Assembly: GCA_003008705.1 (NCBI GenBank)
Contig: PDUO01000005.1
Location: 1,057,997 to 1,121,996, forward strand
Length of the DNA stretch: 64,000 nucleotides
Source: Pezicula radicicola
Taxonomy: Eukaryota > Ascomycota > Leotiomycetes > Helotiales > Dermateaceae
Direction of reading: 5' to 3'
Shown here: piece after piece, positions 12,112-59,635 of the stretch
Position numbering within the stretch: position 1 is the stretch's first letter
Layout of the letters: each line of letters opens with the position of its first letter
Translations under genes and position numbers: made by a program
Notes under the pieces: generated by a model
Databases searched by the model: none
Told to the model about the DNA's origin: nothing
The model's input: only the letters and a program-made list of their open reading frames with translations

Positions 12112-14046
12112 ATGGCTGCAAATACGACTGAGGCGATGATGGCCGCTACCATGGCCAATACTTCTCACGCCTCTGTCACTTTAGTACAAACACACGTTGT
12201 GGATTTTGTACCCAAGTACTTTGTCGCTGTAAGCTTTTGGCAGGTTGCTGCCACGGTATTGGCGATCCTGGTAGCCTACGATCAATGTATGCTACACCCT
12301 GTAGAGGTATACCCAAGATACTAATTATTAAAGTCATGTATATCAAAAACAAAGGATCGATCGCCGGTCCGATGTTCAAGCTTCCCTTTATGGGACCATT
12401 CCTCCAATCTCTGGACCCGAAGTTCGAGGCCTACCAACGGCAATGGGAAAGTGGTGCACTTAGTTGTGTATCAGTTTTCCACAAGTATGTCCCTCACACA
12501 ATCTTCAAGATCTGATTGAATATCTAACATTTGCTTTCCTTAGATTCGTCGTATTGGCCTCTGACCGCGATCTGGCGCGCAAGGTTTTTAACTCCCCTGC
12601 GTACGTTAAACCTTGCGTGGTTCCTGTTGCTAGTGAGATCATGGGACATGATGCCTGGGTTTTCCTAGATGGAAAAGCACATGTCGATTTCCGCAAAGGC
12701 CTCAACGGACTCTTCACCCGAAAAGCTCTCGATTGCTATCTTCCAACTCAAGAAAAGGTCTTCTCGGAATACTTCGATAAATTTGTCTCTGCCAGTAGAA
12801 AACTGGGGCAGAAGCCAATGCCGTTCATGAGCTTTTTCCGAGAAATCAATTGCGCAATATCCTGCCGTACATTTGTTGGCCAATACATTACGGATGAAGC
12901 GATCCAAAGAATTGCCGACGATTACTACTGTATCACGGCTGCACTAGAATTAGTGAACGTCCCTTTGTCACTTTATATTCCATACACTAAGGTTTGGCTG
13001 GGAAAACGCGCAGCGGTTGGCGTCCTTGCCGAATTTGCAAAGTGCGCCGCTGCAAGCAAGCTTCACATGGCGGCGGGTGGAAAGGCAACATGCATTATTG
13101 ATCGTTGTTCGTAAATCCGGTTCATATTTGTCCTCTCTCTGCTTTTCTCGGGTATTATAACATTTCTCGAGATTTCCATACTCCAAAGACAGGCTCGCTA
13201 CTCCTCAATCATGTCTTAGTTCTCCAAAAACCTTCTATAAGAAGTACTGCTAACACCGAAGTCCTAAACAGGGATAGCCAGTATGATCGAATCAAAGGCC
13301 TACCGTGATAAAGTTGCTGCTGGTATAGATGCAGAGAAACCTCCGGTTCTACTAAGGGAGTTTACAGACTATGAGATTGCACAGACAATGTTTACATTCT
13401 TGTTTGCATCCCAAGATGCATCCAGCAGTTCCACAACTTGGCTTTTCCAGATTATGGCACAACGACCTGACGTTCTTGATCGAGTTCGACAAGAGAACCT
13501 GGATGCCCGAGGCGGGAATATCGACGCAGCAATTAGCCTGGATTTGCTGGAATCAATGCCTTACACAAACGCAGTGGTAAAAGAAGTTCTCCGCTACCGC
13601 CCACCAGTCATATTCGTTCCATATCTTGCCAAGAAAGCTTTCCCCGTTACCCCAAGCTATACCGTACCGAAAGGCGCCATGATTATCCCTTCGTGTTACC
13701 CAGCGCTCCACGATCCAGAAGTGTATGCTCAGCCAGATTTTTTCGATCCAGAAAGATGGATTTCGGGAGATGCAGCAGAGAAGAGTAAGAATTGGTTGGT
13801 CTTTGGGACGGGGCCGCATAATTGTCTTGCGCAGCAATATGTGCAAATGACAATGACAGCAATGATTGGAAAGGCGGCGTTAGAGCTTGACTGGGTGCAT
13901 CATGCGACGAAACGGTCTGATGAGATCAAGGTTTTTGCGACTCTCTTCCCAATGGTAAGTCTCTTCAGCAAGAAATCCAAGAATGTCAAGTACTAATTCT
14001 TCAGGATGATTGTCCTCTCGTTTTTACCAAGAGGCCGCGAAACTAA
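12112..14046 (+). CDS. CYP61-family cytochrome P450, sterol C-22 desaturase (ERG5-like)
   Basis: Membrane P450 of the CYP61/ERG5 family, which desaturates the sterol side chain at C-22 late in ergosterol synthesis, in the ER. Exons 12112-12286, 12334-12484, 12544-13106, 13272-13954 and 14005-14046 give 537 aa. Seen: N-terminal membrane anchor, GSIAGPMFKLPFMGPFLQS, SCVSVFHKFVVLAS, WVFLDGKAHVDFRKGLNGLF, I-helix FLFASQDASSSSTTW, ExxR in KEVLRYRPP and the heme loop FGTGPHNCLAQQY with its cysteine. The residue after CL is usually Gly in this family and is Ala here. Joining exon 3 to 4 across the GTTCGT donor restores the conserved Trp in CIIDRWIASMIES. Genomes normally hold a main ERG5 elsewhere, so this may be a paralogue tied to the neighbouring regulator, transporter and GMC enzyme; that is inference. 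Confidence 0.92.
13107..13271 (+). mobile_element. Introner-like intron, copy A
   Basis: 165-nt third intron of the CYP61-like gene. It starts with the uncommon donor GTTCGT and ends with CTAACACCGAAGTCCTAAAC then AG, including the branch site. It is homologous end to end with the first intron of the lyase gene at 59,232-59,066. The first 30 nt match at 28 positions; shared blocks follow around TTCTCGA/ATTTCCA, GCTCGCTACT, TGTCTTA and GCTAA-ACCGAA-TCCT. The host genes are unrelated, so the intron itself must have been copied. Other introns of this gene are about 47-60 nt. Confidence 0.8.
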
Positions 14047-14957
14047 GTCATCGTTTTCGCAAGCCTCAGGATTTTCTTAGATTCTCGGGATGACCCAATA
14101 GCTGTATTTGTAGTATGATTATAGAGATGTTTTCAGATGGTTCGGAGATGGGGCTATCTGAAGTACTTGAACTGATGTAATTTCTTGCAGTATACTTCCA
14201 TATCAGCTTATATTATATCTTAACATCAAATTATTATTGGAAAACGGCGACTGTGTGAGTCCCATGGTGAAAGACGTTGTAGTCTGTACTCAATATAGTG
14301 CAGCGAGAGAGTGAGCCTACCCAACTTGTAAGGGGGTAGATCACATGATTGAAGCGAAGCGAGGTGCCCGAAGTGCTTTATAAAGTTCTGATCTTGCAGT
14401 ACGGCTCTACTCGAGTTCGGCAAGTATTATCAAGTTATTTTTTGGACACGATTGGTTCCTTTTCCTCGACCCAGAGGTCTATTACATTTTATAATGACAA
14501 TCATCTTGCTCTCTCATCACGTGGCGATAACATTTTCGGCGCCGAGATAAAGCAGAAAGAAGCCACCGCCACGGCCGGCCCCATATAAGATTGTAGAAGT
14601 TGAAGCTCGACCGAATAACTTCAAGTCATTCAGTTGCCAAGGAAGCTTTGCCTGATAGGCCAACTACAATCTGGGGGTGTAACCGTACCATTTCATGTCT
14701 CGAGTCTCTACTCCGTACATAACCGCCACACTAACGCCACAATATGGTTACTACTACTCCCACTCTTGCTTGTGTACCTAAGAGGCTCAAGTCGCCCTAT
14801 CTCTGCTATCTTGCCGGCAATGCAATTATGTCTACTTGTGGACACTTTGCCGACGGCCAATTTGATGCTGTACATATATATAAGGTCCGGACTCATTCTG
14901 GCGACGATGACGTTGATTGTTGGCCGTCTTGAATCCGATTGATCGTTCTGATGCATT
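14047..14957. other. Intergenic between P450 and MFS transporter
   Basis: P450 3' UTR and MFS promoter. Overlapping short frames near 14630-14970 on both strands are shadows without homology. A TATA-like run lies at 14875-14883. No other gene seen. Confidence 0.4.
14875..14883 (+). promoter_or_regulatory. TATA-like box ahead of MFS transporter
   Basis: TATATATAA, 75 nt upstream of the chosen ATG at 14958, in a plausible position for a fungal TATA element. Supported only by sequence and position. Confidence 0.3.
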
Positions 14958-16775
14958 ATGGCTGTCATTGAGGAAAAGTCCGCGCCGGGAACAGTGCAGC
15001 TAATTGATGAGAATGGAGAGCTTCACGTCAAACATTCTCAGGCTGCACATGATATTGTGTTGGTGCCATTGCCCTCAGGTATGTGGATTCTCTGGTGTCT
15101 AAAACCCTCTGAACATTAAATTTTGCTGATTCTATAGGAAAGATGATCCGGAAGATCCATTGAATTGGTCAAGAAGAAGGAAGCTATTGCAGACATCATG
15201 TGTAGTTATGTACACAGTCATGATGGTCTTCCCATCCTCAGCAGTGTATTCAGTCACCACCCCCATCTCAAAAGCCACAGACCTATCTGTAAGTGACCTA
15301 GTTTCCGGCACAGGCGCTATGTTCCTGTTTTATGGATGGGGATGCATAGTCTGGCAAGCCCTCGCACTTCAGTACGGCAAGCGGCCTGCATATTTGATTT
15401 CTATGGGAGGTTCGATTATTATCATGGCTTGCGCTCCTTTATGCACAACAAATGGTCCATATCTAGCCAACAAGATCCTTCAGGGGTTCTTTGGTGCTCC
15501 AGTTGAGTCTCTTTGCGAGATTAGCATGACGGACATTTGGTTTGCGCATGAGAGACCGTTATATCTTGCAGTTTATGGTTTAAGTCTAGCTTTCTCGGGC
15601 AAGTTTGCTCCCGTTTTTGCAGCCTTTATCAATACAGGACAGGGTTGGAAATGGACTCTTTGGTGGTGTGCTATTGGAATGGGTGTAGCATTTGTCTACT
15701 GGTATGTTTCCAATCCTCTACTTCGTAGAATATGGATGCACTAACCACCAAACAGTTTCTTTCTCATGGAAGAAACTAACTACGATCGCCACATTGCTCA
15801 ATCAACCATCAGCGCAAATACTAGCACTGAAGTTGTTAATGAGCCCAACACCGTCACCAGTGAGAAATCAGCACCAACAGACAGCAGCGAGGGAAGCAAG
15901 AATTCTGCCGCAGTCGATGGAGCAGCAGTGGAGATGGGTCAAATGGTCTACCCCCGCAAAACCTACTGGCAGAAACTTAGCGTGATTGACAAGAAGCGAC
16001 CAAATCGTGTTCTCGACATCATGTGGGCTCCCTTCAAGTTCTTCAGCTTTCCAGTTGTAGTATGGGCGGGTTTCATGTATGGAACTAATGGACTTGTCTG
16101 GCCTGGAATATTAAATGCTACAGCCTCCCCACTGTACACAGGAACATACCACTTTAACAGCAGTGATGTCGGCTTTGCATATTTTGGAGCTGTGGTGGGA
16201 ATGGTTTTAGGGTAAGTAGATGCTCTAAATATATGTCTAAACATCGCTAAGAAGAAAATAGATCTCTTTGGGTAACATTTGCTGGACCAAAGCTCGTCCT
16301 ACATCTAGCTCGCCGTAATGGAGGAGTTGCCGAGCCAGAGCATATCCTCTGGCTTTTCAGTGCCTCCCTTGTTTGCGTGCCATTCGCCATGCTTCTCTGG
16401 GGTCTCGGAGCAGCTTATAAAGTCCACTGGTTTGGCCTTGTGTTCGCACAATGCATTCTTGCCATATCCAGTACTCTTTGTCTTTCGACGTCGATCCAGT
16501 ATGCCACTAGTAGTTACCGTGATCTCGGCGGGGAACTCATCACTACGATTATCCTTATCCGGAATACGCTAAGCTTTGGTATAAACTATGGTATTACACC
16601 TTGGTTAAAGGCACAGGGTCAGAGGAATACTTTTATTACTGTTGCGGTGCTTGCACTGGTTTGTAACGCTACTATGTTTATTATGATCAAGTATGGACGA
16701 CGGCTCAGGGAAAGCAGCGCTGCTCGATATTGGGGATATGTGGAGACGGCCCGGGCGAAGGGACTAAGTCATTGA
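14958..16775 (+). CDS. MFS transporter, DHA1-like
   Basis: Proton-coupled major facilitator transporter of the plasma membrane. Exons 14958-15078, 15143-15701, 15756-16211 and 16262-16775 give 549 aa. Intron 1 must use the second AG (...TATAGGAAAG) to produce the family hallmark DIVLVPLPSDDPEDPLNWS ahead of TM1; the first AG shifts frame. About 12 hydrophobic segments, the loop 2-3 motif YGKRPAYL, CFFLMEETNYDRH at the start of the long central loop, and an acidic/Ser-rich loop around residues 245-290. The substrate cannot be read from sequence. It follows the P450 on the same strand and converges with the GMC oxidoreductase, leaving 109 nt between stop codons, so an efflux role for a product of the block is plausible but unproven. 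Confidence 0.9.
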
Positions 16776-16884
16776 TCGGGTTCAAATCCTGCAGCAATGC
16801 ACATATCTTATAAGTACAATTAAAAAGACTTATTAGATGTACAATTGACATGATATCATACTATGATTATCAGTGACAAATGTC

Positions 16885-18990
16885 TCATTCTCCGTTTCTA
16901 ATAAACTCTGCAACTTTTTCAGCAAGAGCGTCTACTTATGTCAGTACCAGCAAAGGGAAAATCAGGACTAGAGGTATGGGGACTACTAAACTTACAAACA
17001 GTACTCTGCGGATGACCCGGCGGCAAAAATGGAAACGCACTAGCATCCACGACTCTCAAACCTTGTACTCCCAAAACCCTTGCATGACTATCCACAACAG
17101 CCATCTCATCCTCAACCTTGCCCATCTTACAAGTACAACTAGCATGCCAAACAGTCTGCAATCCATCCTTGATCTTGTCCAGAATCTCATCATCAGTCTG
17201 TACTGTCATGCCAGGATAATACTCATCACCAATCACAATTTGCTGCATGAAGTTGGTGGCGAAAGCTTCTCGGACTCTACGGTACGCTGCGATGGCTACT
17301 CTTTGGTCTGTTGGTGATGTGAGATAGGCCGTGTTGATTATTGGGAGGTCCTTTGTGTCGGAGGATTGTAATGTGACTGTCCCGCGGGAGAGCGGTGCTA
17401 CGAGAGCTGCAAGAATAGTTGCGTATTGATAACCATCTCTCGGCTCTGCAGTGATTTTAAGCATTAGTTCTTGATACGAATGACTGAGTAGGGAACTACT
17501 CACGTTTGAAAAGCAGGCCAGACCAATCGCCAACATAGCCGGGGCCGGACAAATACTCGATCTCTGGCCAATCTAGAGTCAAAAACTCGGAGTTAGTTTA
17601 CTTATTCTAGATATCTCGGGGCTAGTGTACACAAGATTCAGGGACAACAATAAATAAACTAGAAAAGGCCAATTACACTACAAAAAATCTGAGTACATAC
17701 CGGGCGGAAACTGAGATAATTCTTGCAAAGCCTCTTGACCTAGCGACGGACGAAGATGTTCAGGTACCTTCTCCCACCCAAGAAAATCAGCCACATTGTT
17801 GGTAAGTGGACCTTTTTTCCGGGCGTAACTAATAGTATTTTTGAGGAGAAATAAAGGATTCTGCTACACGTCAGCCAGAAAGCCACCGCTATTTTCTATC
17901 AACTCACATTAGCTAGTTTTGTAAGTGTTGTCACATCAACTCTGTAAGCAGGACCGAAGAAAATGTGGTCTTGCATATTTTGACCAACACCAGGTCGATC
18001 AGCAATGAGGGGGATTCGAAATTTCTTTAACTCTTCTGCAGGCCCGATCCCAGAGACCATTAGAAGCTGTGGAGACTGAAATGCACCAGCAGATAGGATA
18101 ACTTCTTTGTTTGCGTGAAGAGTGAAGGATTTGAACTTTGATTTGACTCTTACTCCTGTCGCCCCCCTATTAGGCCCAAAGAGTATCTGTTTCGCCATTG
18201 TAAGTGTGAAAATTTTGAGATTAGTGAGCCCTTCTGAGCGTGCGGCATTTAAAAAAGATGTTTGGGATGAGTCGCGGGTTTGGGACTTGGGTTTAATAGT
18301 AGTTGAAGTGTATTGACACCCCATGAGCGCACCGGTGTTAAAGTCTCGTACTGTTGGAATGTTGATCTCGTTCATTGCGCCTTCCATATAGCTCGAAAAT
18401 GCCTGCGCGAAGTTGGGGTAAGAAACGTTCAGAGGCCCACCAGTTTTAATAAACGCCTCCGGGTTATAAAGTGTTGGTGATCCTGCATCTCGATTTGGTC
18501 CAGGAGGCGTGAAGTGAGTGCTTTTCTGGTAAAACGGAAAAAAGTGTTCAAATGACTGTAATTTGTGTTAAGATATACCCTTGGAGTAGTGGTTCATATG
18601 CCTCACCCAAGATTTATCGCCTACATCCTGAGCCCACTTATCTAGCGTTTGCACCGTTGGCCTCTGATATATCATGAAATTTCTTGCAGAACTACCACCA
18701 AGACATTTCCCTCTTGCATAGGATCTCGCCTTGTTATTGGAGGCAGGATCAGGTTTCGTCTTAAATCCCCAGTCAACGAGTCGATTGACTTCACCTGTTC
18801 CCGCAAACAAGACGTCTGCACCTGGAATTGACTCAAGAAGCGGCGAAGCAACCTGATATCGCATCCCGGCCTCAACAACCGCTACTGTGACATTTGGGTC
18901 TTGTGCAAGGCGCATGGCAATTGTAAGTCCACCAGTTCCACCGCCAACAACGACATAGTCAAAGACATGCTTCTTGTTGGGAGGTTTCAT
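16885..18990 (-). CDS. GMC-family FAD oxidoreductase
   Basis: Glucose-methanol-choline oxidoreductase; FAD-dependent oxidation of an alcohol or related substrate. Exons 18990-18607, 18555-17908, 17863-17701, 17572-17504, 17445-16996 and 16931-16885 give 586 aa, the usual length. Seen: FAD dinucleotide motif VVVGGGTGGLTIAMRL with VAVVEAG; GMC signature 1 GKCLGGSSARNFMIYQRP; signature 2 SAGAFQSPQLLMVSGIGP; the active-site region HASCTCKMG and HPQSTVYALAEKVA. The last splice uses AGTAG before ACGCTC to restore the C-terminal Tyr-Ala-Leu-Ala. Exon 3 could start three bases later at 17860 with the same frame. No clear signal peptide, so it may be intracellular. Convergent with the MFS gene; part of the 9.9-19 kb block. 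Confidence 0.9.
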
Positions 18991-19830
18991 GATTCTTGAA
19001 GACCGGCTCGGGTTAATATGAAAATATAAAAAAATACAGCTTTTCTTGTGAGAAACCTACCACTCAGTCATATATTATTTAACAAGCAAGCACTACCACT
19101 CATGGCTAGTTGAGACGGTACACCAGTACTGTATTACGACGAATCCTTCAAAACTTTGTCCTTGCGAAAGGACAAGTAGTCACCAGACATCCGATCTTCT
19201 TGCCTGTGCTTTCCCGAGGCATAGAGTTGTATTGCAAGGGAGACCTTGACAGTCCCTACTAGGATACCGGCACTCCAAATCTGACGGCATTTGGATACCA
19301 AGTGATAAAGAACCATTGGAACAAACAATATGCCGTGAATAGTATGAATCCCGGGTATTACTGCAACCATGCTGTTAATGATGGTTGACGGCTGATGGTT
19401 ATGGCTATGTCAACTTTAGGAAGCCAAGGATGTAGAGACGAGATTTCGCAACCGAGGCCGAAAGTCTGTGGCTACATGTGATTAGAACAAATCCCAAATT
19501 TCTTTATAACATTTCGGTACCTTGTATATCATACCATCGCGGGAACTAGCTGTTTGGCAATGTCTATAGGAGATACAGTTCATAGCCACCGAAAACAAAT
19601 TAGTTATACTACGTGTAAAGCCGAAGTTTAGTGTTGAGCAAGCGAAACAGTTTTGCACTATCTAGTATTGATGACAAATATTAAATTCTAGTCAGTGTTC
19701 ATGATGCAATGTATCTTCGATGCACTCTTGCCAGCATTGGCAGCATATAGGGATATTATATATTATAAGCGCATAGCTAATGCTACCAGACAAAGAGGGT
19801 ATATAATATTTGGGTGTTGCGAACATCCTC
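18991..19830. other. Intergenic with one doubtful small ORF
   Basis: Contains a 78-codon minus-strand frame, 19370-19134, with a hydrophobic first half and a charged end. It has no recognised family and no clear upstream exon, so it is not called a gene. GMC promoter at left, pepsin-like gene 3' end at right. Confidence 0.3.
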
Positions 19831-21615: not shown

Positions 21616-22793
21616 CGGGCCTGGAGCTGTTGCTTTTTATGAAGGTAGTTCGAGTAGCACAAAAGGAAAAGTTTGGCAGGAACTATACAAAAGAAAAGTA
21701 AAAGTATTACCTCGCAGTCATCTTGTTACTTCAAGACTTGGAATGTAGCCGCCCTAGGTCTACGACATGCCGCCTAGCATCCAGTGAAGAAAAACAAACC
21801 CGAAATCGAAAGTCCAACAATCCAACACCATAGAGTTAGGACAGTTGCAGCGCGCCTAAATCCGCCATTACCCAAGGTTGCAGCCCACAACGAAGCGCAG
21901 ATTTTGTGGTCAGGATGCCACTAGCCCTGACATAGCTGGCCTTCTGAGCTTGAGATATGCATGAGTCCCAGAAGACATGTTATAATAATAGATGCTCGTC
22001 TCCATTGCGTCTTTAAGGCGCTAGATTTCTGCAAAACTACGCAGATGTGTGAAGATTGAAGGAGGGCAAGTACTTAGACTCCAATTTTAATGCTCTTAGT
22101 TGACCACTTGTTTTCCCGTGGTAACAAAGACTCTTAAAAGACTTGGACTCGAATCTAACATGAGCTCCGCATGATAGCGTTCTGGCCTGGGAAACTTCTC
22201 CCAGCCCAGACTGCCAGTACCACTCCAAAAGATGTGTCGCTGGAGCCCGGAGTCCGTATTGGGTTTAGATCAGGAGTGAACCCGGGCGATTCCAACAGTT
22301 TGGATATTGACAGCATACATACAGTACGAAAGGTACAGTAGTGCAGAAAATAATGCCAAACGTGCAGCAGCGGTAAGGGATGCCGACCCATAGCGATGAG
22401 GTAGATTGGCTACCAACGTAACGGTACGAAGTACTTTCGTAGTTTGCTCATGCCATCCACGGCCGTCTACGCGCCGCATCGTGTTCCCCTAGTTTTGCCG
22501 CAGTACCGCGCGATGCCGCATCACAATGTTAGAGATATTAGATAAGGATTAAGGACTGGAAGCGCTGGCAACTGGTGGGGATTCGGAGAATTGTCTCCAC
22601 GTACCATTCGCTCTCTTGCCGCGAGCAATTTCACAGCGACAGCTTGACGACGAGGGTGGCTCAGGGGAGGGAAGCCGAGGAAGCGTAAAGGCAGCATGGC
22701 CCGCTCTGAGGTCTTGAGAGTATCGTCTCTACTGTATCGTCGTTTTTCTTGGGCATTGCGTTCCTTTTGTTTGTACCGGTATCTTCATGAAAG
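21616..22793. other. Divergent promoter region, no gene seen
   Basis: 1.2 kb between the start codons of the pepsin-like gene (minus) and the glycosyltransferase gene (plus). Short frames have no recognisable domains. The GT61-type gene likely has a long 5' UTR or promoter here. No specific element identified. Confidence 0.4.
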
Positions 22794-39726: not shown

Positions 39727-39803
39727 AAATAGCTTTAAACTGAGTAAACATAACTTCTACTAACAGTTTCATATAAATTAAGTACTAGATTAAATTACAA
39801 CTA

Positions 39804-39839
39804 CGGAGGTTCCCGCCAAAAGTCATGATAATACAGGGC
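39804..39839 (+). repeat. Left terminal inverted repeat of Tc1/mariner element
   Basis: 36 bp starting CGGAGGTTCCCGCC and ending ATACAGGGC; identical in reverse complement to 41819-41854. Preceded by TA. Confidence 0.95.
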
Positions 39840-39920
39840 CCAAGCGCTGTAATTTAGGGCATGCGCCCTGTAGGCTCCACTCCCCATACAATCCACTATA
39901 TAAACGAGAGTTACAGGGTA

Positions 39921-39943
39921 CAAGCCCTGTAATACAGGGCTTG
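39921..39943. repeat. Subterminal near-palindrome in transposon
   Basis: CAAGCCCTGT followed by AATACAGGGCTTG: 11-bp arms around one central base, repeating the ACAGGGC motif of the TIR inner end. Possible additional transposase-binding site. Confidence 0.7.
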
Positions 39944-40001
39944 AAAATCATGAAAATTGACTCTATTTTGAAGATATACTCCCCATCTCTCTTCCTATTG
40001 T

Positions 40002-41556
40002 TTAATGGTAAACACTCTCCTTTTCCATTCCTATTTTCCTTCCTTCCTTATATTCATTACCTCCTTTAAGCTCTATTATCTTCTTAATATGAATTGGAAT
40101 CCGCTCAATCCAAGCCTGTATCTTCTCTTGTGGTAGATTATTCCAACACTTAATCCAATCTTTCTTTAATTGCTCCTTACTTGTAGGGGCACCCTTCTTT
40201 GTTGTTTCTCTCTTCATCCAAAACCAACAAGGTTCAATAGCATTTAAATCAGGAGAGTTCCCAGGCCAAAGAAGCTTACAAATCTCCCAGAAATCAAAGA
40301 TCTCTTGTTGATAATGTGAAGAGTGTGGGCCTGCTCCATCTTCTTGTACAAGAGTGCCTGGGTAGTCTTTTTGACACTCTTTATAAAATGGAAGAAGAAG
40401 AGGCTCTAAAATAACCTTCTGGTATCTATACTTATTAGTAAAAAGAAGAGAAAAAGGCTTTATATTCTTACCTATACCAATCAATTCCTCCTTTCCCAGA
40501 TCTTCGAATATAAGCTCCATTCTTTTCAGAGTGTTTCCATTGTGGTTTTGGCCCAGGAATATTACTTCGAAGTCTTACTCTATTTAGTCCAATTGATAAT
40601 TCCCATTCTCTTTGATCATGAGCAACTCTAGCTGCATTTCGAGCAGCTAAATCCTTCTTTGCCTCTTGTTTTTCTTGCTTAGTTTCATCTTCCCAACAAT
40701 GGCAAGGGCCTTTCTTTGCCCAAGTAAATGAACCCCAAAACATAAAAGAAGAAAAGCCTTTCCATCTTCTCTTAATAACATGTAGGTGATAAGCCTCAGT
40801 ACTTAATCTCCATACTCTTCTCTTTCCTCGAACTCCACCTAATTCAGCACTACTTTCATCTGTAAAGATAACTTTCTTCCAATCTTCAATAGTCCAATCT
40901 TTATACTTCTTGCACCAATCAAGTCTCTGCTTCTTCATTTCCTTTGTAAGACCTGGCTTAGTAGTATGTTTATAAGAACCATAATGAGCTCCCTTTAGAA
41001 CTCGTAGAACTGTCCGAGCAGAGATTGTATCCTTATTTTTCAAGTTGAATTCATGGGCTATTCGAGCACAAGAATAAGTTCGAGTTGTTGAGTTTTTGGT
41101 AATAATTATAATAACTTTTGCAGCAACTTCTGGGGTAGCTTTCAGAGGCCTTCCAGTTCGAGGAGAATCATCTAAATAAGAAGCCAAAATAACCTTGTCG
41201 ATTTTAGGGTTATATCCTCTGCTATATGCCTTTACTCGGAGCTTATATATATGAGGTACAGAGATATGAGTAAAAGCCTCAATTTGCTCTGGCTTCATAT
41301 TACCCTCAAGTAGAGTAAGAGCCTGAATTCGAGCTCCAATATCATGAATAGGCCTTGACTTCTTTGGAGGAGGAGGAGGAGGAGGAGGAGGAGGAGCCTC
41401 TAATTCAGATTCATCATTATCAGAAGAAGATTCAGAATCAATAGGAGAATCAGAATTAGAAGAAGATTCAGAATTATATTGAAGACCTAATTCTGGCCCA
41501 GAATTATAAGAATCAGAGCTTATGTCGTCGTCACTTGAATCAAATGAGGAGTCCAT
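40002..41556 (-). CDS. Tc1/mariner transposase
   Basis: DDE transposase that cuts and reinserts the surrounding element. Exon 1 41556-40472, intron 40471-40426, exon 2 40425-40002; 502 aa. The intron (GTAAGA...TATAG) must be removed to join GIDWYR to YQKVILEPLLLPF. Layout: acidic Ser-rich N-terminus, a run of ten prolines (about 55-65) encoded by GGA/GGC-rich repeats, HTH region (IGARIQALTLLEGNM..., then SPRTGRPLKATPEV), and the catalytic domain. Catalytic residues seen: Asp in IFTDESSAE, Asp in VQEDGAGPHSS, Glu in GNSPDLNAIEPCWFWMK, with 34 residues between the second Asp and the Glu. No stop or frameshift, so potentially active. Confidence 0.93.
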
Positions 41557-41818
41557 TTTAAAGCAATAAGATAAGTATATTAGAAGATAAAGAAGAAGAA
41601 GAAGAAGAAGAACAATAAGAAAGAAATAATATAATTATAAAGATGTAGGAAAGGCTGTAATACCCATAGAAAATAAGGCTTCGATGATGTGCTGGCAATA
41701 CATATCACCTGACATTAAGCCTATTACTGGCTCGCTTCTAGGCTTCCCATGCCCTGTAATCGTCGTTTCTATAGTGGAGCCCTAATAAATGGGGCCTACA
41801 GGGCATTATAGGGCCCAT

Positions 41819-41854
41819 GCCCTGTATTATCATGACTTTTGGCGGGAACCTCCG
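41819..41854 (-). repeat. Right terminal inverted repeat of Tc1/mariner element
   Basis: Exact reverse complement of 39804-39839, ending GGCGGGAACCTCCG and followed by TA. Confidence 0.95.
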
Positions 41855-42377
41855 TAGGGATAGTAAATTTGTAAAATAATACTTAGAAGTGGATCTAATT
41901 CATAATTACTCCTGGTTTTATTAACCCCTCTCTAGAATGATATTGCCTACCTGTATGTCTACCTTATAAGAGGGCTATTTGGCTTTATAATGATAGATTT
42001 GTCAATTGGGAATAGGTATATGACTAACTATGGCTACACTGATTGCCCTCGCTTAGCTACTACATGTACACATGGACCTACCTAGCTAGCTAAGTAGAAG
42101 TTCTTCAAGCTCTCTCTTGGGTCTTTGCAGCACAGAATGCAACATATTTGCTACACGGAATTTGACCCTGTACAAGATTTTTTATTCCTGGTTAATTAGC
42201 TCTCGCTTACTAGCGTAAACTTGCAAAACTGATAACAATCTTTAGATGCAACATAAGGTCCATGCTTCGAGTAACACAACTAGCATGTAATATAATATAA
42301 GTCTCAAGGGCCTAATATTCAATACAAACCTATAGTTTATTAAAACACGTGTATAAACATCCTTGCTCAAATTGAAG
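41855..42377. other. Intergenic, no gene seen
   Basis: About 520 bases of AT-rich sequence between the transposon and the 3' end of the decayed dehydrogenase. No open frame with homology. Confidence 0.4.
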
Positions 42378-44099: not shown

Positions 44100-44227
44100 T
44101 TGCTGTCTTGGAAACGCGAGAGATGGTAGTCACAAGCATAAACTAGAATAACTTTGCAGAGAGAATAATTATGCAGGCACAACGAAATACAGATAGGCAT
44201 TGAAGGAGCTCCAAACTAAGTATATAG

Positions 44228-45202
<975 letters not shown>

Positions 45203-48044: not shown

Positions 48045-48372
48045 CGAAAAGATGACACTGCAGCTTATAATGTGCTGCACCGCTCCTAGAGGCTGAAGGA
48101 TCATATTTTAGTAGGCAAGCTCAAGGACATGTCACTACTTGGGTTTGATATCGGCTAAGCAAATATAACTACATACCTAGGTTTTATATCAATAAAGCAA
48201 AGGAAAATTGATCCTGCTCTTATGTGAATTATCGCCTGAGGGTACAATTAGATGTGCTGACCTCTGAGACTGAAACCAGCCTACATGAAAGCATACAAAT
48301 GGATTTCTGCAATCGGAAGAGCCTTGTCACCAAGATGGTAATTTGATCATCAGAGTAGTGAATTGTGTCATG
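48045..48372. other. Short convergent intergenic region
   Basis: About 330 bases between the L-arabinitol dehydrogenase stop and the stop of the truncated regulator. Nothing recognised. Confidence 0.4.
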
Positions 48373-48962: not shown

Positions 48963-49296
48963 TCTATACTATATTAGACCTTATATAGTATACTACTATA
49001 AATAGTACTATTTATTTACTAAGTAAATTTATTTAGTTATAAAATAGCTTCCTCCTCTACTATTTCCTTTAAAGGAGATAAGCTACTATATTACTTTAAT
49101 TATATACCTAAAGTAGTTAGTAAATATAGACTTATTCCTTAAAATAAATAACTTTATACCTTATATAGATAGCTCTAAAATAGCTCTTAATAAATACTTA
49201 TATTATAATTCTAAAGAAGAATTATATAATAAAGAGTTAACTATAAAATATATAGAAAAAGAGTCTAATTATAAAAGGAATAATACTAAGGTATTA
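48963..49296 (+). repeat. Inverted fragment of copia gag region
   Basis: RIP-degraded sequence matching, in reverse complement, the 5' internal part of the copia element: it corresponds to 55490-55438 followed directly by 54720-54420. It lacks the solo LTR inserted between those two stretches in the main element, so it preserves the empty site. It ends at the N gap. Confidence 0.75.
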
Positions 49297-50176
49297 NNNN
49301 NNNNNNNNNNNNNNNNNNNNNNNNNNNNNNNNNNNNNNNNNNNNNNNNNNNNNNNNNNNNNNNNNNNNNNNNNNNNNNNNNNNNNNNNNNNNNNNNNNNN
49401 NNNNNNNNNNNNNNNNNNNNNNNNNNNNNNNNNNNNNNNNNNNNNNNNNNNNNNNNNNNNNNNNNNNNNNNNNNNNNNNNNNNNNNNNNNNNNNNNNNNN
49501 NNNNNNNNNNNNNNNNNNNNNNNNNNNNNNNNNNNNNNNNNNNNNNNNNNNNNNNNNNNNNNNNNNNNNNNNNNNNNNNNNNNNNNNNNNNNNNNNNNNN
49601 NNNNNNNNNNNNNNNNNNNNNNNNNNNNNNNNNNNNNNNNNNNNNNNNNNNNNNNNNNNNNNNNNNNNNNNNNNNNNNNNNNNNNNNNNNNNNNNNNNNN
49701 NNNNNNNNNNNNNNNNNNNNNNNNNNNNNNNNNNNNNNNNNNNNNNNNNNNNNNNNNNNNNNNNNNNNNNNNNNNNNNNNNNNNNNNNNNNNNNNNNNNN
49801 NNNNNNNNNNNNNNNNNNNNNNNNNNNNNNNNNNNNNNNNNNNNNNNNNNNNNNNNNNNNNNNNNNNNNNNNNNNNNNNNNNNNNNNNNNNNNNNNNNNN
49901 NNNNNNNNNNNNNNNNNNNNNNNNNNNNNNNNNNNNNNNNNNNNNNNNNNNNNNNNNNNNNNNNNNNNNNNNNNNNNNNNNNNNNNNNNNNNNNNNNNNN
50001 NNNNNNNNNNNNNNNNNNNNNNNNNNNNNNNNNNNNNNNNNNNNNNNNNNNNNNNNNNNNNNNNNNNNNNNNNNNNNNNNNNNNNNNNNNNNNNNNNNNN
50101 NNNNNNNNNNNNNNNNNNNNNNNNNNNNNNNNNNNNNNNNNNNNNNNNNNNNNNNNNNNNNNNNNNNNNNNNNNNN
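49297..50176. other. Assembly gap (880 N)
   Basis: Unsequenced scaffold gap inside the copia nest, between two oppositely oriented element fragments. Real length and content unknown. Confidence 0.99.
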
Positions 50177-50346
50177 TATATATACTATTCCTAATAAGGA
50201 AGTATATAATATAGAAACTAAGGTTATATAACTAATATAGCTAGAGTTATATACAAAAGTAGTAAATATAGTTTTAGTAGTTTAGTGACTACTAAAGGTT
50301 ACTATAGCTATAGAGTATTTATAGTATATAATTATATAATACAATA
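50177..50346 (-). repeat. Partial 3' LTR of copia element
   Basis: 170 bp matching the first part of the LTR in reverse orientation, cut on the left by the N gap. The terminal TG of the LTR has become TA, consistent with RIP. Confidence 0.8.
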
Positions 50347-52364
50347 TACCCTCTTAATAAGTACTATAATAAACTAAGAGACAAAGAGCTTTAGTTCTAT
50401 ATATATATATAATATATATAATAGTACTAATTAAAGCCTATTAAAGTTAGGAAGTATATAAACTTAACTCTATTTAATAGCTTAGTTAGGCTATCTACCT
50501 TTTACTCTTTAGAGGGAATATATAATAGGTTTATAATTCCTTTTTCTATTAGGTCTCTATTATAATAGTATTTTACTACTATATATTTAGTTCTTTTATA
50601 AAAAGTAGGGTTTTTAGCTAGTAATAAGGTACTATTATTATCTATATATAGAGGTAATTTAGTCTATTTAAAATAGCCTAACTCTATTAGAATTTACTTT
50701 ATATAGACTACCTCTTTAATAGTACTAGTAATAGCTATATATTTAGCTTCTATAGTACTTTATACTATTATAGATTATAATTTAGATTTCTAAGAAATTA
50801 GGCTACTAGCTAAGAAGAATATATAACTACTAGTAGATTTTCTAATAGTTATATTACCTATATAATTAGAATTATAATAGTCTATTAAAGAGCTATTTTC
50901 TTTATTATTAGAATAAGTAATTCCTAAGTCTATAGAGCCTTTTAGGTATCTAAATACCCTATTTATATACTCTATATAAATTTTACTAAGATTAGATAAG
51001 AATCTAGATAGTTTACTAATATTAACTACTATATCTATTCTAATAGCTAAAGCTAAATATAATAAAGAGCCTATAATACTTTAATAGTATTTAATCTTTA
51101 TTTTAGAGGCTTATCCTTTATTAGGTTTTAATATAACCTTAGAGTCTAAAAGAGTACTAACTATACTACTTTTTAGTAGATTAAATTTAACTAGTACCTT
51201 TTATATATATTTAGTTTATTTTTATTTTAGTATAATACTAGTTCTTTCTATTTCTATTCCTAAGTAGTCAACTATAGGCTCTAGTCTTTTAATTTTAAAG
51301 TATTTCTCTATAGTATTATAGAAGTTACTAATAGAGTTTATACTAGGGCTTATAATAGTTATATTATCTATAAAGATATATAGTTTTTAGCTAATAGGGA
51401 TTTAAAGCCTAATTTATTAACTAGTATATCTATAAGAGTTAAAAACTATAGTCTAGTTAATTACTTTAATCTATATAGTACTTTATTTAGTTTAAGTACT
51501 ATATTAAGATCTTTAATAAATTCTAAAGCTTATTTTAAGTATATAGGTAAGTCTATATTACTTTATATAAAGGGAGAAATTATATCTATTTTATATATAT
51601 ACTAATTATATAATATAACTAGTATAAAGACTATTTTCTAAGTTATTTATTTAATAATATTAATAATAGTATCTATATAGTTTAAACTATATAATTATTT
51701 AAATCCCTTAGTTATAAATCTAGCTTTAAACTCTATATAATTATTAGATAGTTCCTTAATTTTATAAATCTATCTAGTCTTTAATAGTTTATAATTAAGT
51801 ATTTTATTATTATCTATCTCTTCCTAACTATATTATATATTTAAGGAATTATATTTATTATATATAGTTTTAGTTTAATATTTATTATAAAGACTATTAA
51901 TAACTTTATTATATATCTTTAAATCTTTAAATATAAAATTTTATAGCTTTTTAATTATAACTTTTTATATAAAGTTATAATCTTATATAATTTATTAATT
52001 AAAATTAAGCTTATAATTTAAATCTTCTTTTTTAAACTTTAATATAATATTATAAACTAGTATATTATAAAAGTTATTAAAATTATTATTCCCCTTACTT
52101 AAAAATATTAAATAAGTTATTAAAACTAGTCTATAAGGGAAGTTTCTAATTTTACTAAGGCCTTCTATAGCTTTAGAGCTCTTTAGTATATTTAGGCCTT
52201 ATAAATTAATATTTAATTTCTTAGAGGTAGAGATATATTTAGGATCTAGTTTATTTAGACTACTATTATTATTTATAGATCTATTTAGCCTTATAGGATT
52301 AGCTACTAGTACTAGAGAAGATAGTAAATTATAAAATAATTTATCTTTACTTAGTTCTTAACTT

Positions 52365-52414
52365 TCTTCTTCTTCTTCTTCTTCTTCTTCTTCTTCTTCT
52401 TCTTCTTCTTCTTC
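52365..52414 (+). repeat. CTT trinucleotide repeat
   Basis: About 16 tandem copies of CTT (GAA on the element's coding strand) within the copia pol remnant. Confidence 0.9.
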
Positions 52415-52778
52415 TATTTTACTAGTATTATTATTAGAAGAGTTTATAGAGTTATCTATATTATCTATAATAGAAGGAATAGAATATTTATCTTAATCTA
52501 TATTAAAATTATTTTTATAAATTAAGCCTTCTTTTATTATTATATCTCTAAAACTAATAACCTTATTTAATATAGGATCCTATATAAACTAGATAATTAT
52601 TAGAAGACTTAAAGCCTACTAAAATACCTTTATTAACTTTATTAACTAATTTACCTTCTTTAAACCTAGAAGGGGCTTTCTTATATTATAGAGTATAAGT
52701 AAAAGATCCTAATATTCTTATATAATTTATATTAGGCTTAATATTTATAATAGTATTATAGAGAGTTTTATTTATAAT

Positions 52779-52838
52779 AGAATTATAAGTATAATTTTTT
52801 ATATATANAGAATTATAAGTATAATTTTTTATATATAT
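52779..52838 (+). other. Duplicated segment around single N, probable assembly join
   Basis: A roughly 28-base stretch beginning GAATTATAAGTATAATTTTT occurs immediately on both sides of the N at 52808. This looks like two overlapping contig ends that were joined without being merged. Confidence 0.7.
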
Positions 52839-54720
52839 TATAAACTATATTATATAAGATTATAGTTTTAGAGGGATAGATTTTTATTTATAGAAAGCTA
52901 TAATCCTTTCTATAATAAATAGATTTAATCTTTTACTTATATTATTCTATATAAAGGTATAAGGACTAGTATATTTAATTATAATATTTTAATTATTAAA
53001 GTATTACTTAGTTTTTAATAATTTAAATTTAATTATATTATTTAATCTAAAGCCTTTTATACTAATTTTAAATTATATAGCTATTAGTATATAAAAGCTT
53101 ATAATATTATCTATAGCTTCTAATTTAAATCTAATAGGATAAATCTATATAGCTCTAGTCTTTTTATAAGTAAAAGTCTATATATACCTTTCTTCTTTGA
53201 AGCCTTTAATTTTAATAGGGCGTAATATATCTAAATTAAAGAAAGTAAGTATATTTTTAGGTACCTTTAGAGGCTTTCTACTAACTATTTCTTTAAATTT
53301 TCTATAGTAGTAAGGATTGTAATTAGTTAATTACTTATTCTTATATAAATCTAAATTAAGACTATTTATATAGTCTATTATTTTATATAGATAATCCTTA
53401 TTTAAGTACCCTAAGCGTCGATATAATATATCTAGACTATTTTCTATTATAGTACTTTCTATACTAAATAGACTATCAACCCTATATATAATAGGTTCTA
53501 ATTTAGTAAAATTAATTAGAATATTTAGATAGTAAGTATTACTTTACTATACTACTTCTATCTTAGTTTTAGACTTATATTTTAATATAATACTATTTCC
53601 TTTAAATAAAATAGTCCAACTCTTATTAGTTAGTTCCCTAGGGCTTATTAAAGTAGATTTAATATTAGGAATATAGTTTATATTAGTTATAACTAGTTCT
53701 TTATTATCTACTATAATAGGTATTTTACCTATAGCTTTAATAGGTATTTTAATACTATTAGCTATAGTAATAGACTTATTATTTACTTCTACTAAGTCTA
53801 TAAGCTAGTGCCTATTAGGAGTATAGTACTCTATAGCTCTAGAGTCTAATATAATCTTATTATCTAAGTATTTATATTTTTTATTAATATTAGTCTCTAT
53901 AATAGTAGTATAACTACTAGGGTTTATAGGATCTAAAATATTAATATTAGGATTATTACTAAAAGTAGATATAATAATCTTATTAGAAGACTCTTTAGTA
54001 GCTTCCTTATTTTTAGTATTATCCTTATTTTCTTTAGATTTAGATTTATTCTTAGACTTAGACTTAAACTTAACTTAGTCTTATTATTATTAGACTTATT
54101 TTTAATCTTTAGTTCTTTATCTAGCTCTTTGAATTTTCTAGAGGTAAAAGAGTTAAAAGGACTAGTTAACCCTTTAAATAAGATCTAAACTATAAATATA
54201 TTATTTAGTTTATATCCTAAATCTTTTAAATAAAGACTAGACGATTATATAATACTTGTATATTCGTCTATATTAGAACAGGACCTATAGTCGGCTTCTA
54301 TAAGCTTATTAAAATATCTACCTATTAGTTCTATACTAGTTTCACTAAAGGTAATTATAATAGCTTTATAAAAATCACTAGTACTTAGTTTATCTTTAAA
54401 TCTTTTACTTATATCTAAAGTTATAATAGATTATAAAGTACCTAATACCCTAGTATTATTCCTATTAAATTCAGACTCTTTTTCTATATATTTTATAGCT
54501 AGTTCCCTACTATATAGTTCGTTTTTAGAATTATAGTATAAGTACTTATCGGGAGCTATTTTAGAGCTATCTATATAAGGTATAAAGCCGTTTATTTTAA
54601 GGAATAAGTCTATATTTACTAACTACTCTATATAATTAGAGTAGCTAAGTAACTTATCTCCTTTAAAGGAAATTATAGAGGTAGAAGCTATTTTATAGCT
54701 AAATAAATTTACTTAGTAAG

Positions 54721-55437
54721 TGTTGTATTATATAATATAATTACGTACTATAAATACCCTGTAGCTATAGTGATCTTTAGTGGTCGCTAAAGCCCTGTAA
54801 TAATATTTACTACTTTCGTGTATAACTCCGGCTATATTAGTCACGTAACCTTAGTTTCTNTATTATATACTTCCTTATTAGGAATAGTATATATAGGACG
54901 CTAAACTAGCCGAATCGAATAGATAGGGAAGGAGAAAACTAAACTAGTAGTTTTCTAGTTATAAATTAGTTTTTAGTTCACAAGGAAAGACTACTTGTTT
55001 AAGTAGGAATAGCGAGGTCTAATTAAGTAGACTAAATAAGGTAATTCGTACGAACTGCCTATTAGGGTAGTCTATACGACTATACGCTTATAATACATAT
55101 TTTGTTTTATTTTATATTGTTTTATTTTATATTGTTTTATTTCATTAGTGTTTTATAAGTAAAGCAAAGCTTTCCTAACTTAGTAGTTTATACGAACTAG
55201 TCTATACTAAATATAGTAGTCTTTACGACTAGCCTTTTGTATATAGATAGCCTCTCTTTCTTAGTAGATAGATAACTTCGAATTCAAGTCTTTAGTTCTA
55301 TATATTATTGCTTCCTACTTGTCTATCTAAACTCTGTTCGACGCTCCTCCTATTCTATATTTATAGTGTGCTTTAGGCTGTGCCTACCCTACCTCCCTAC
55401 CCTATTTCACCCTATACTTATAGCATATAACCTGATA
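54721..55437 (+). repeat. Solo LTR (plus) inserted in copia internal region
   Basis: 717 bp, starting TGTTGTATTATATAATATAA and ending AACCTGATA, flanked by the 5-bp duplication GTAAG (54716-54720 and 55438-55442). The uninterrupted site is seen in the inverted fragment near 49005-49012. Same family as the LTRs at 56787-57488 and 62479-63184. Confidence 0.85.
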
Positions 55438-56786
55438 GTAAGTAAATAGTACTATTTTTAGTAATATACTATATAAGGTCTAATATAGTACAAGAATTAA
55501 AATTATAGCTCTAAAAATAAAGCTAATATTAATTTTTAAATTTTTTAGTTTTATAAACTTCTTTAATCTAGCTATTTTAAAAAGTTTATAAATTTAATCG
55601 ATTTTTAAATTTAATTTAGTTCTAGTTTTAGTACTAAGTAAGGTATATAATTTTACTTTATATATATAGACTATATATATATTATAGTACTATATATAGG
55701 CCTTATATTAAGCCTCTAATAAAAATCAAGCTATATATATATTAAACTTACTAAAATATAAACCCTCTATTACTTATATTAAATAGAGGCATAGACCCTA
55801 TATATTAAGTCTAGCTAAAGGATTATTTTTATATATAAATAAAATTAGAACCTTAGGTCCTAAATTATATTATACTATATAAATATTCTTATTTCTAATA
55901 GTAGAAATAACCTATATAATAGGATTTTTATTCTATAAGAATAACCTCTTATATATATTAAAATAAGAGGATTTAAATACTAATTAAATAGTAACCTTAT
56001 TATAAGGATTTTATACTACTTATATAAGTAGTAAATACTAGGCTTATATAAGACTTAGTAATTCGTGTTCCCTTAATCTCTAATAAAATAGAGAACCTCT
56101 ATAAGAGGAATTATAACTATAGCCTAGTCTAATACTAGTATCTATAGACTTACTAAAGGTTTCCCTTAAATAACCTACTAGCTTAAAATACAGTTTCTTA
56201 TACTTCTTACTAATAAGCTAAATAAAGTACTAATTTAGCTTTTCTTATAGTGAATATCTAATTAAGTATACTACTTATATATAGCTATATAGCTAATAAA
56301 ATAGTATATAATAATATAAGTCTACCCTCTCTAAGGATAGCTTCTTATAGAACTTATATATTTAGAAATTACTATAATATAGACTAAATAGAGAGTTATA
56401 AAGTAGATATACCTCTTTATAATAGTATATTCCTTAGTTAAGAATAAGGCTATACTTATATACTAAAGCTTAAGGATAGATACCTTTATATATAAATAAG
56501 GCTATAACACCTACTATAGGTGGTGTAATTATATAGTTATAGCCGCTAGAGTCTATATACTATATAAAAATAGTATACTAGTAGATAGCTATATAAATAG
56601 ACTAACTACTACTACCTTTATACTCGGTAGAGTCTAGTTACAGGGACTTAGGCCAAAGGGCTTTTATACTCTCTAAGTAGTAAGAATAAGGGATAGGGAA
56701 TACTTATAAAGACTAATATAGCCTCTATATAGATATATAGATATTACCTCTGAAATACCAATCAACAGTACTCCGGGCTTATAACC

Positions 56787-57488
56787 TATCAGGATATAGG
56801 CTATAAGTATAGGGTGAAATAGGTAAGGTAGGTAGGTAGGGTAGGTACAGCCTAAAGTATACTATAAATATAGAGTAGGAGGAGTGTCGAACAGAGTTTA
56901 GACAAGTAGAAGGAAATAATATATAGAACTAAAGACTTAAATTCAAAGATATCTATCTACTAAGAAAGAGAGGCTATCTATATATAAAAGGCTAGTTATA
57001 AAGACTACTATATTTAGTATAGATTAATTTATATAAACTACTAAGTTAGGAAAGCTTTACTTTACTTATAAAATACTAATAAAATAAAATAATATAAAAT
57101 AAAACAAAATATATATTATAAGTATATAGTTATATAAACTATCCTAATAGGTAGTTTATACGAATTACCTTATTTAGTCTACTTAATTAGACCTTACTAT
57201 TCCTACTTAAACAAGTAGTCTTTCCTTATGAACTAAAAACTAGTTTATAACTAGAAAACTACTAGTTTAGTTTTCTCCTTCCCTATCTATTCGATTCGGC
57301 TAGTTTAGTGTCTTATATATACTATTCCTAATAAGGAAGTATATAATATAGAAACTAAGGTCATGTAACTAATATAGCCAGAGTTATATACAAAAGTAGT
57401 AAACATTATTACAGAGCTTTAGCGACCACTAAAGATCACTATAGCTACAGGGTATTTATAGTACATAATTATATTATATAATACAACA
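56787..57488 (-). repeat. 5' LTR of minus-strand copia element
   Basis: 702 bp, reverse-complement match to the solo LTR. Adjacent inner sequence has a primer-binding-site-like motif, identifying this as the 5' LTR. Confidence 0.85.
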
Positions 57489-57527
57489 GTTATAGAACCT
57501 TAATAGTTATATACTATATTCCTAGTA

Positions 57528-57768
57528 ATACTAAATATAATAGTTCTTATAACTAGCCTTTTATATATAAACATCCTCTCTCTCTTAGTAGATAAATAAC
57601 TTTAAATTTAAGTCTTTAAGCTCCTTCCTTATCCTATTGTCTTTAATTTACCTATTATTTCGTTTGACGCTCCACTACCCTATAATTATAGTGTGCTTTA
57701 GGCTGTGGCTACCCTACCTTACCTGCCCTACCTATTTACCCTATACTTACTTATAGCCTGTAATTTGA
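57528..57768 (+). repeat. 3' fragment of a plus-strand LTR
   Basis: About 240 bp matching the last third of the same LTR family (ACTAGCCTTTT ... GTGCTTTAGGCTGTGGCTAC ... TATAGCCTGTAA), abutting the 5' LTR of the main element. It ends about 130 bp from the stop of the lyase gene and marks the border between TA-rich and normal sequence. Confidence 0.7.
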
Positions 57769-57897
57769 CATTTGAGAAAGAGGACAACTATAATTAGTGG
57801 TATTTGAGATAGATTACAAAAACACGAGTGTCGGTCGAGACATTTAATCACTTTTAGGTGGTATTTGACATATTTTCCGTTAACTTTATTGTATCTA

Positions 57898-59635
57898 TTA
57901 AGCTAGTAGCTCAAAATCTGTATCTAGACAAAACAATGAACTTTCTATTAGCCTACGTCGACCCCGTATCCAGATCTCTTGGTCAGCGAGAGTCTTTTCT
58001 GCTATTGCTAGCATACGAGCCATCTCAACTGGTTGCGGCCCCCCAGCAGTAGCTCTGTTGCGGACAATAGCTACAGGATCTAATGTTGAGCGAAATTCCG
58101 CTTCGCTCATTGGCAACCCACTTCCAGCAGAATTCATTTCTTTCAGAGTCTCCATGTAGATCCGCTGTGCCTCGACGTAAGGGAAATCACTCGGGCGAAT
58201 GTCGTGCGCCTTAGCATAACCAACAACCTCCGAAGCAAAATGATGGCCAACACGAAATGGCAGTTTGTATTGCCGCATCAACACATCGGCCACTTCCTGG
58301 GAGGCTGTCCAGTCATTGTTAAGCTCCTCCAACGCCCGCCCCTTGTTAATGACCATGGCATCAAGGATCAGCTTCCAATCTGAAAGAACACGCATAGCAC
58401 CCTTCAGCACAGCAGTATTATCACCTAGGATCTTAGCGTCACTCACTAAATAGTAAGAGAGTCAGCATTTATCTTGTATAACCAGTGAATGAGGAGCAAG
58501 GCCGGCCCTCATACCAAATAGAGTATAGAAGAGATATAATAAAAAGCAGCGTGGCCGAGAAAAAGATGAAGAAAAGGGTTATCCTTACTACCAGGCGGGA
58601 TATTGTGAGTTTGGATGGCTCGACCAATGCCCAGTGTGACAATGTTAGATGCCCTAGCGCGTGTATGATTCAAAAGTCCTGGATTACGCTTTTGCGGCAT
58701 TGCACTTGACACATAGGTGTTGTCGCCCCCTTCCTGCAGCAAAATCCAGGGACGAGGCTGAGCATACTGCACCATAATATCTTGGATAAAAGCTCCAGCA
58801 TGCAGCGCAATGCTGGTGGATAGAGCACCAAGTTCAACCGGCATCTCGGTGGCGGAGATTTGTACGGCATCATAGGCATTTTCTGCGGTGGCAGCAAACC
58901 CCAGGTAATTTGCCATGCGATCACGATTCAGTGGCCAACTAGTACCGTTCAGCACTGTCGTACCCATAGGCGACCGGTCCAGCCTGGCATAGAATTCTCT
59001 CAGCCTTTGGGCATCACGTTCAAGTCCAGCAACATGTCCCAAAAGGTAATGACCATAACTGTTGGCTAGTTCAGGATTTCGGTATTAGCTGCACTTCCTT
59101 CAGAAAGTCCTAGGAGAAATAAGACACAATTTATAAGTAGCGAGGCAGGTCTCGAAAATGTGGAAATGTCGAGAAGTGTTACAGCATCCAAGACAGTCAA
59201 CAAGAGGACAAAAATGAAGCGGATTTACGAACGCTGAGCACCGACACCATTGGTATAGTTGGGGACGACAGTGTCCACATGGACTTCAGCCATACGGACC
59301 ATTGTCGCCGTGGTTTCATGTAGCTGCTCGGCCAGACAGAGGGTCTCGTCACGAATGATGGCGGTTCTGGCCGTCATCAGCATGTCCTGACTTGACCTGC
59401 CGGCGTGCAGCAATGTCGCTTCCACTCCAGCAGCCTGGATTAGCAGTGGCTCAAAGGTAATGACGAGGCTCGGTCGCCTTGCACCAGGCTGATTCCCCGC
59501 CTGCATGACGGTGCGCAAGCCATTTGCGATGCGTGGTGCTACATCACGATCCAGTAAACCCTCGTCGGTGTTGATGACAGCAGTTGCCTTATTGATCTCG
59601 CCGAGCCAGAAGAAGATATCACGAGTTGAAGACAT
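57898..59635 (-). CDS. Argininosuccinate lyase-family enzyme
   Basis: Member of the aspartase/fumarase/argininosuccinate lyase superfamily, which splits fumarate (or an analogue) from an N- or C-linked succinyl group. Exons 59635-59233, 59065-58589 and 58445-57898 give 475 aa. A TTG at 59665 would extend it, but MSSTRDIFFWLGEINKATAV is the natural start. Seen: LHAGRSSQDMLMTARTAI, VPNYTNGVGAQPNSYGHYLL (restored by the first splice), LNGTSWPLNRDRMA, the signature SSAMPQKRNPGLLNH and the ASL-type C-terminal part PFRVGHHFASEVVGYAKAHD. It resembles bacterial argininosuccinate lyase-like proteins of unclear substrate more than the arginine-pathway enzyme, so a catabolic or secondary role is likely. 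Lies 356 bp downstream of a regulator on the same strand. Intron 1 is an introner-like copy. Confidence 0.88.
59066..59232 (-). mobile_element. Introner-like intron, copy B
   Basis: 167-nt first intron of the lyase gene. Starts GTTCGTAAATCCG, ends GCTAATACCGAAATCCTGAA then CTAG. Homologous along its length with the intron at 13,107-13,271. Its removal restores GAQPNSYGHY, so it is spliced as a normal intron. Confidence 0.8.

Follow-up and report, generated by a model that had tools for sequence, protein, structure and literature searches.

A probable introner family in unrelated genes of the fungus Pezicula radicicola

Introduction

Where new spliceosomal introns come from has long been debated, and introners are one of a small number of sources that can be observed in action. 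In the Dothideomycetes, introner-like elements (ILEs) are known from Fulvia fulva, Dothistroma septosporum and Zymoseptoria tritici according to the available text of PMC4457414, and Alternaria alternata is an ascomycete introner host named in the main text of a 2022 survey (PMC9860276). Here, a stretch of 64,000 nucleotides of Pezicula radicicola (contig PDUO01000005.1, positions 1,057,997 to 1,121,996; the whole stretch is called the window) was analysed, in which an intron of an ERG5/CYP61-like gene and an intron of an argininosuccinate-lyase-like gene are homologous. One spliceosomal intron, about 166 nt long, has very probably been multiplied in this genome and inserted whole into the coding exons of many unrelated genes, forming an introner family. 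The sequences show a dispersed family with coherent frames after predicted splicing, constrained splice signals and a younger subfamily, and the corresponding sites in homologues of both window genes are uninterrupted.

Results

Two homologous introns in the window

The product of the first host gene resembles the sterol 22-desaturase ERG5/CYP61, with 83-84% identity in the best rows, and that of the second is the lyase-like protein; both introns are listed with their splice signals in Table 1. By blastn within the window the two introns showed 74.4% identity over 164 nt (E 4e-25). A preliminary description of this DNA had given them lengths of 165 and 167 nt, an end-to-end likeness and 28 matches in the first 30 positions, all of which proved correct together with the coordinates, the alignment containing two one-base gaps. 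It had also proposed a comparison with shuffled introns; the global score was 199, and 1000 shuffles of the lyase intron gave a mean of 41 (standard deviation 8.7) and a maximum of 74. A block described as shared, GCTCGCTACT, was exact in the ERG5-like copy, while the lyase copy has CCTCGCTACT. Removal of the introns restored the conserved motifs as claimed, the junction reading CIIDR-W-IASMIESK for the ERG5/CYP61-like gene product and YTNGVGAQ-P-NSYGHYLLGH for the lyase. As a control, intron 2 of the lyase gene was searched against the genome, where its one match was itself.

Copies in the genome

The assembly around the window comprises 61.0 Mb in 152 contigs. DNA similarity searches and pattern searches of this genome were merged, and the resulting number of distinct copies, at least 59, is a lower bound because the scoring of candidates was capped. 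They were found on 28 contigs, with 26 on the forward and 33 on the reverse strand and only one pair less than 1 kb apart. The prediction of further copies in unrelated genes was therefore borne out in the window's own genome. With the ERG5-like intron as query, all 40 scored candidates contained family matches, and the lyase intron gave matches at 27 of 27 candidates. The family consensus matched in 40 out of 40 when the best 40 of 59 candidates were scored; the two parts of the consensus, used as queries, matched in the best 40 of 51 and the best 40 of 44 candidates, which were those scored. The count for a 13-mer, allowing two mismatches or fewer, gave no information (870 matches versus 1171 for the reversed control). 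Its exact matches numbered 20, with 16 inside family members and four (L036, L043, L044 and L046) outside the family, and a gapped pattern yielded 19 matches versus 6 in the control. From 76 loci, 73 model matches were obtained, which were reduced to 53 after merging of duplicates; 47 near-full-length copies were retained for analysis.

Reading frames and Pfam matches after predicted splicing

When these 47 copies were removed as introns of the form GT..CTAAY..AG, the joined frame, measured on the shorter side, was open for 156 nt at the median, and it extended on both sides for at least 60 nt in 43 copies and for at least 90 nt in 36. A shift of the acceptor by 1, 2, 4 or 5 nt lowered the median to 72-78 nt, and random pseudo-introns at the same loci (n = 1212) gave a median of 63 nt, with 53% reaching 60 nt. 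Read as antisense introns, the elements gave a median of 45 nt and reached 60 nt in 17 of 47 cases; the sense reading was the better one for 43 copies. With the GTAAAT at position +5 as donor the median frame was 81 nt, and the first donor was better in 35 copies.

Spliced products of the two window genes and of 30 of the other 45 copies, 32 in total, were scanned with Pfam. A family extended across the junction in 21 of these (both window genes, then 7/10, 6/10 and 6/10), although two of the 21 matches, MFS_1 in L061 and L014, lay under the curated Pfam cut-off for these fragments. Among the host proteins are transporters of sugars and amino acids as well as members of MOSC, chitin-binding, alpha/beta hydrolase, transcription-factor, aldehyde dehydrogenase and luciferase-like monooxygenase families; one more, which is sphingomyelinase-like, carries two copies 246 bp apart. 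The spliced products of L021 and L028, which we take to resemble the C-terminus of the ATP synthase beta subunit and kynureninase, gave no Pfam match with the short pieces available.

Conservation of splice signals

Conservation across the 47 copies was 100% at donor positions 1, 2 and 5, 98% at position 6 and 98-100% in the CTAA of the branch site, versus a mean of 82% outside the splice signals. Eight copies had been found through a donor-like pattern and 39 by similarity alone; in all 39 of the latter, donor positions 1, 2, 5 and 6 were fixed. The most frequent distance from the branch A to the intron end is 18-19 nt. The acceptor columns aligned poorly (61% and 54%) because the ends CTAG, CAG or TAG lie at slightly varying distances. 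One copy, L077, has an apparent GTAAGT donor near 347-352 in place of GTTCGT, a change to the textbook donor.

Uninterrupted sites in homologous genes

A second ERG5-like gene of the same genome (L076, G000:C25:667206-668189), 66% identical to the window copy, is open across the introner site, the match covering positions 36-362 of the query. Its single stop (TAG) is located elsewhere, as CIMDGWVMSQ reads through the introner position, and its frame breaks at the position of the older intron 2 of the query. The host may thus possess two sterol 22-desaturases. Among the 120 listed relatives of ERG5, 32 rows were of metagenome or nameless source. Four of these (P0001, P0031, P0032 and P0098) stop short of the last intron and were not counted, while the other 28 continue past LFPM into V... 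of the last intron and therefore represent unspliced sequence. The CIIDRW site was uninterrupted in all 28 of these frames (identities 65-85%). Together with the paralogue, this agrees with the absence from orthologous positions that had been named as confirming evidence. The nearest named ERG5 homologues come from Coleophoma cylindrospora, Halenospora varia and Stipitochalara longipes, all members of the Helotiales and not of the Dothideomycetes, the class named in the preliminary description.

For the lyase, named homologues were mainly from Alphaproteobacteria (Tardiphaga, 83%) with a few fungi (Coleophoma, 82%; Phlyctema; Colletotrichum). The motif across the introner site was present in 111 of 120 rows, and the bacterial homologues are uninterrupted there. 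In a midpoint-rooted FastTree phylogeny the window lyase paired with Coleophoma and two unlabelled rows (support 0.89), within a clade of 20 (support 0.98) that consists of 12 labelled fungi, seven unlabelled rows and the window protein and holds no labelled bacteria; an inner node of this clade had a support of only 0.07. We infer that the gene would have been transferred from bacteria to fungi and that the introner would have been inserted afterwards. Since the gene also carries its single-copy second intron, at least two introns would have been gained after the transfer. With an introner in a bacterial-type gene, the intron-free ancestor is as certain as possible, which fixes the direction of the change. 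Judged from the homologous sites of both genes, the two window copies are gains and not ancestral introns.

The lyase gene (58446-59635, reverse strand) has the look of a horizontally acquired, alphaproteobacterial argininosuccinate-lyase-like gene that is common to Coleophoma, Phlyctema and Colletotrichum. It sits on an island of normal GC content (58001-62000) between two AT-rich blocks (50001-58000 and 62001-64000) with a GC content of 0.19-0.31 and a strong dinucleotide bias like that of repeat-induced point mutation (composite index 1.2-1.5).

Subfamilies and nested elements

Pairwise identity among the copies ranged from 51 to 93% with a mean of 72%. The copies collected are homologous and less alike than the near-identical ones that had been expected. 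A younger subfamily B comprises the lyase copy (L022) and L008, L013, L014, L016, L019 and L068, in which 20 of 21 pairs are 85-93% identical and the remaining pair 83%. Four copies are shortened to 111-137 nt. Three copies are split by further insertions of miniature inverted-repeat transposable elements (MITEs). L031 and L080 share one MITE, which has inverted repeats matching at 29/30 and 30/34 bases and TA at both ends, and L083 holds a different one with repeats matching at 16/18 bases. MITEs lodged inside introners represent a route for the growth of new introns, and they allow two insertion signatures to be compared side by side. The window also contains a Tc1/mariner-like transposon (39801-41857) with perfect inverted repeats of 39 bp bounded by TA and two overlapping open reading frames on the reverse strand, one with a match to HTH_Tnp_Tc3_2 (362 aa) and one, in another frame, with a match to DDE_3 (172 aa).

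Flanks, terminal repeats and folding

No per-copy match of the flanks beyond chance, as a target-site duplication (TSD) would give, was seen in the 47 copies. A search for a terminal inverted repeat (TIR) gave a best score of 11, where shuffles averaged 10.8 (p 0.43, or 0.42 with the other form of the consensus). The preliminary description had expected a stable stem-loop; the folding energy was ordinary (z -0.45, with 69 of 200 shuffles folding as well), and no pairs were found in a consensus RNA structure among the copies. A terminal stem like the NTIRE of Xylaria was considered and rejected, being no better than in shuffles. Stable secondary structure has been reported for ILEs; it is not a defining trait here.

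Base composition next to the introns was examined in the 36 copies with a frame of at least 90 nt on both sides, ten positions being tested and p values left uncorrected. The exon base after the intron was T in 20 of 36 copies (p 2e-4), the base before it was G in 16 (p 0.005), and A was present at position -3 in 19 (p 9e-4). A G before the donor is ordinary, and a T after the acceptor is not usual.

Table 1. Coordinates of the introner copies, their host exons and related features. Positions are those of the window unless a locus name precedes them.
Feature	Position	Strand	Remarks
Introner copy, subfamily A	13107..13271	+	ERG5/CYP61-like gene, phase 1; Pfam p450 (4-426) spans junction
Donor GTTCGT, subfamily A copy	13107-13112	+	
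Branch site GCTAAC, subfamily A copy	13249-13254	+	
Acceptor CAG, subfamily A copy	13269-13271	+	
Introner copy, subfamily B	59066..59232	-	argininosuccinate-lyase-like gene, phase 1; Pfam Lyase_1 (74-277) spans junction
Donor GTTCGT, subfamily B copy	59232-59227	-	
Branch site GCTAAT, subfamily B copy	59089-59084	-	
Acceptor TAG, subfamily B copy	59068-59066	-	
ERG5/CYP61-like exon 5' of introner	12544..13106	+	ordinary intron 12485-12543 precedes
ERG5/CYP61-like exon 3' of introner	13272..13956	+	
Lyase exon 1	59233..59635	-	
Lyase exon 2	58589..59065	-	
Lyase intron 2	58446..58588	-	unrelated to family; single genome copy (control)
MITE-interrupted introner copy	L031 ~1595-1730	-	
MITE-interrupted introner copy	L080 ~380-536	-	
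MITE-interrupted introner copy	L083 ~424-563	-	

Discussion

Several observations weigh against the interpretation of these elements as introners. Splicing of the family copies is predicted from sequence alone, and the frame controls are not near zero, with shifted acceptors reaching 60 nt in 29-33 of the 47 copies. In 34 copies a GTAAAT that resembles a second donor is present at +5, and its use yields the better frame in 11 of the 47. For 11 of the 32 scanned products no Pfam family spans the junction (eight gave no match, and in three the match was confined to one side). Full conservation (100%) extends to positions 50 and 61, for which no role is known, and the bias for T after the intron has no explanation. 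The uninterrupted sites concern the two copies examined, out of at least 59, and with an average identity of only 72% present-day activity is no more than possible. Dozens of copies in unrelated genes, one of them of bacterial origin, would represent a clear case of brand-new fungal introns.

Every copy brings along the splice signals that it needs, a donor that is mostly GTTCGT, an RCTAAY branch site and a YAG acceptor, so that the protein would be left intact after removal. Once excised, the intron would return to genes either as RNA or as a DNA copy, with reverse splicing followed by reverse transcription, or capture during DNA-break repair, as candidate routes. Such reinsertion is preferred here over cut-and-paste transposition, with about an even chance of being the route. 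No TSD or TIR was detected although MITEs of the same genome keep their signatures, and the copies are placed in sense; this favours spread through an RNA intermediate or by capture where DNA breaks, routes proposed for other ascomycete introns in the accessible text of PMC9860276 and PMC12403724. It is unlikely that the copies represent a non-autonomous DNA transposon, a MITE-like introner whose TSDs or inverted repeats are too short or eroded and whose copies outside exons were lost. Transposon-style subfamilies would suit such an origin, and TSDs and/or TIRs occur in many non-ascomycete introners (PMC9860276, main text). The first four consensus nucleotides (GTTC) are also complementary to GAAC just before the acceptor, but the pairing base at position 161 is G in only 54% of the copies and, as given above, the terminal repeat scores at shuffle level (11 versus a mean of 10.8, p 0.43). 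The flanks of the 47 copies match no more than by chance, 43 of the 47 read better in sense than in antisense, and true MITEs of the genome retain inverted repeats at 16/18 to 30/34 bases. Some introners lack TIRs, so that the absence of a TIR only makes a DNA route less probable.

Two further explanations are very improbable. Stwintrons of the [D1,2] type, consisting of two nested introns, multiply in the Xylariales. These are multi-copy ascomycete introns inserted without duplications and are of similar length (four near-identical Xylaria stwintrons of 185 nt in the available text of PMC12403724, versus 165 nt here). The [D1,2] type starts with GGT according to the accessible part of PMC8469720, whereas G precedes GT in only 26 of the 47 copies, and the proteins are already restored by removal in one step. 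Equally improbable is an RNA gene or regulatory element that lies within old introns and has been conserved there for its function. Conservation does run along the entire length of the element, but a search of six loci against Rfam found nothing on it, the only hit being an unrelated tRNA in L004; the fold is no better than in shuffles (z -0.45), consensus pairs are lacking, and the homologous sites are uninterrupted for both copies examined.

It is possible, though rather doubtful at present, that an intron lineage of the Leotiomycetes, mobile until recently or even now, enters transcribed genes by way of its own excised RNA, prefers targets of approximately A-x-G^T and makes even genes acquired from bacteria intron-bearing. 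If so, this fungus would allow RNA-mediated intron gain to be followed directly.

Comparison with known systems

The family is of the ascomycete introner kind, a kind that is already known. Neither the Leotiomycetes nor the Helotiales are named in the main text of the 2022 survey (PMC9860276). A search of mainly open literature, judged by titles and abstracts, revealed no introner described for either group, and an earlier report is possible.

With the [D1,2] stwintrons of the Xylariales and the cropped introns derived from them, as described in the accessible text of PMC8469720 and PMC12403724, the present introns share a multi-copy nature and seamless insertion without TSD. Those stwintrons are nested, start with GGT, have terminal or near-terminal inverted repeats and show no nucleotide bias at the exon borders. 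The introns found here, in contrast, are single introns with a bias for G before and T after them and no significant inverted repeat. The ascomycete introners in the main text of PMC9860276 are closer, as they also lack TSDs and TIRs, carry their own splice sites and are placed in sense in genes. Compared with the Dothideomycete ILEs in the available text of PMC4457414, which form hundreds of near-identical copies, at least 59 copies with a mean identity of 72% were found here in a Helotiales-like host; the two are set apart by these descriptions. Like those ILEs, the present family consists of repeated spliceosomal introns in unrelated genes, with signs of recent gain, decay towards ordinary introns and a species-specific character.

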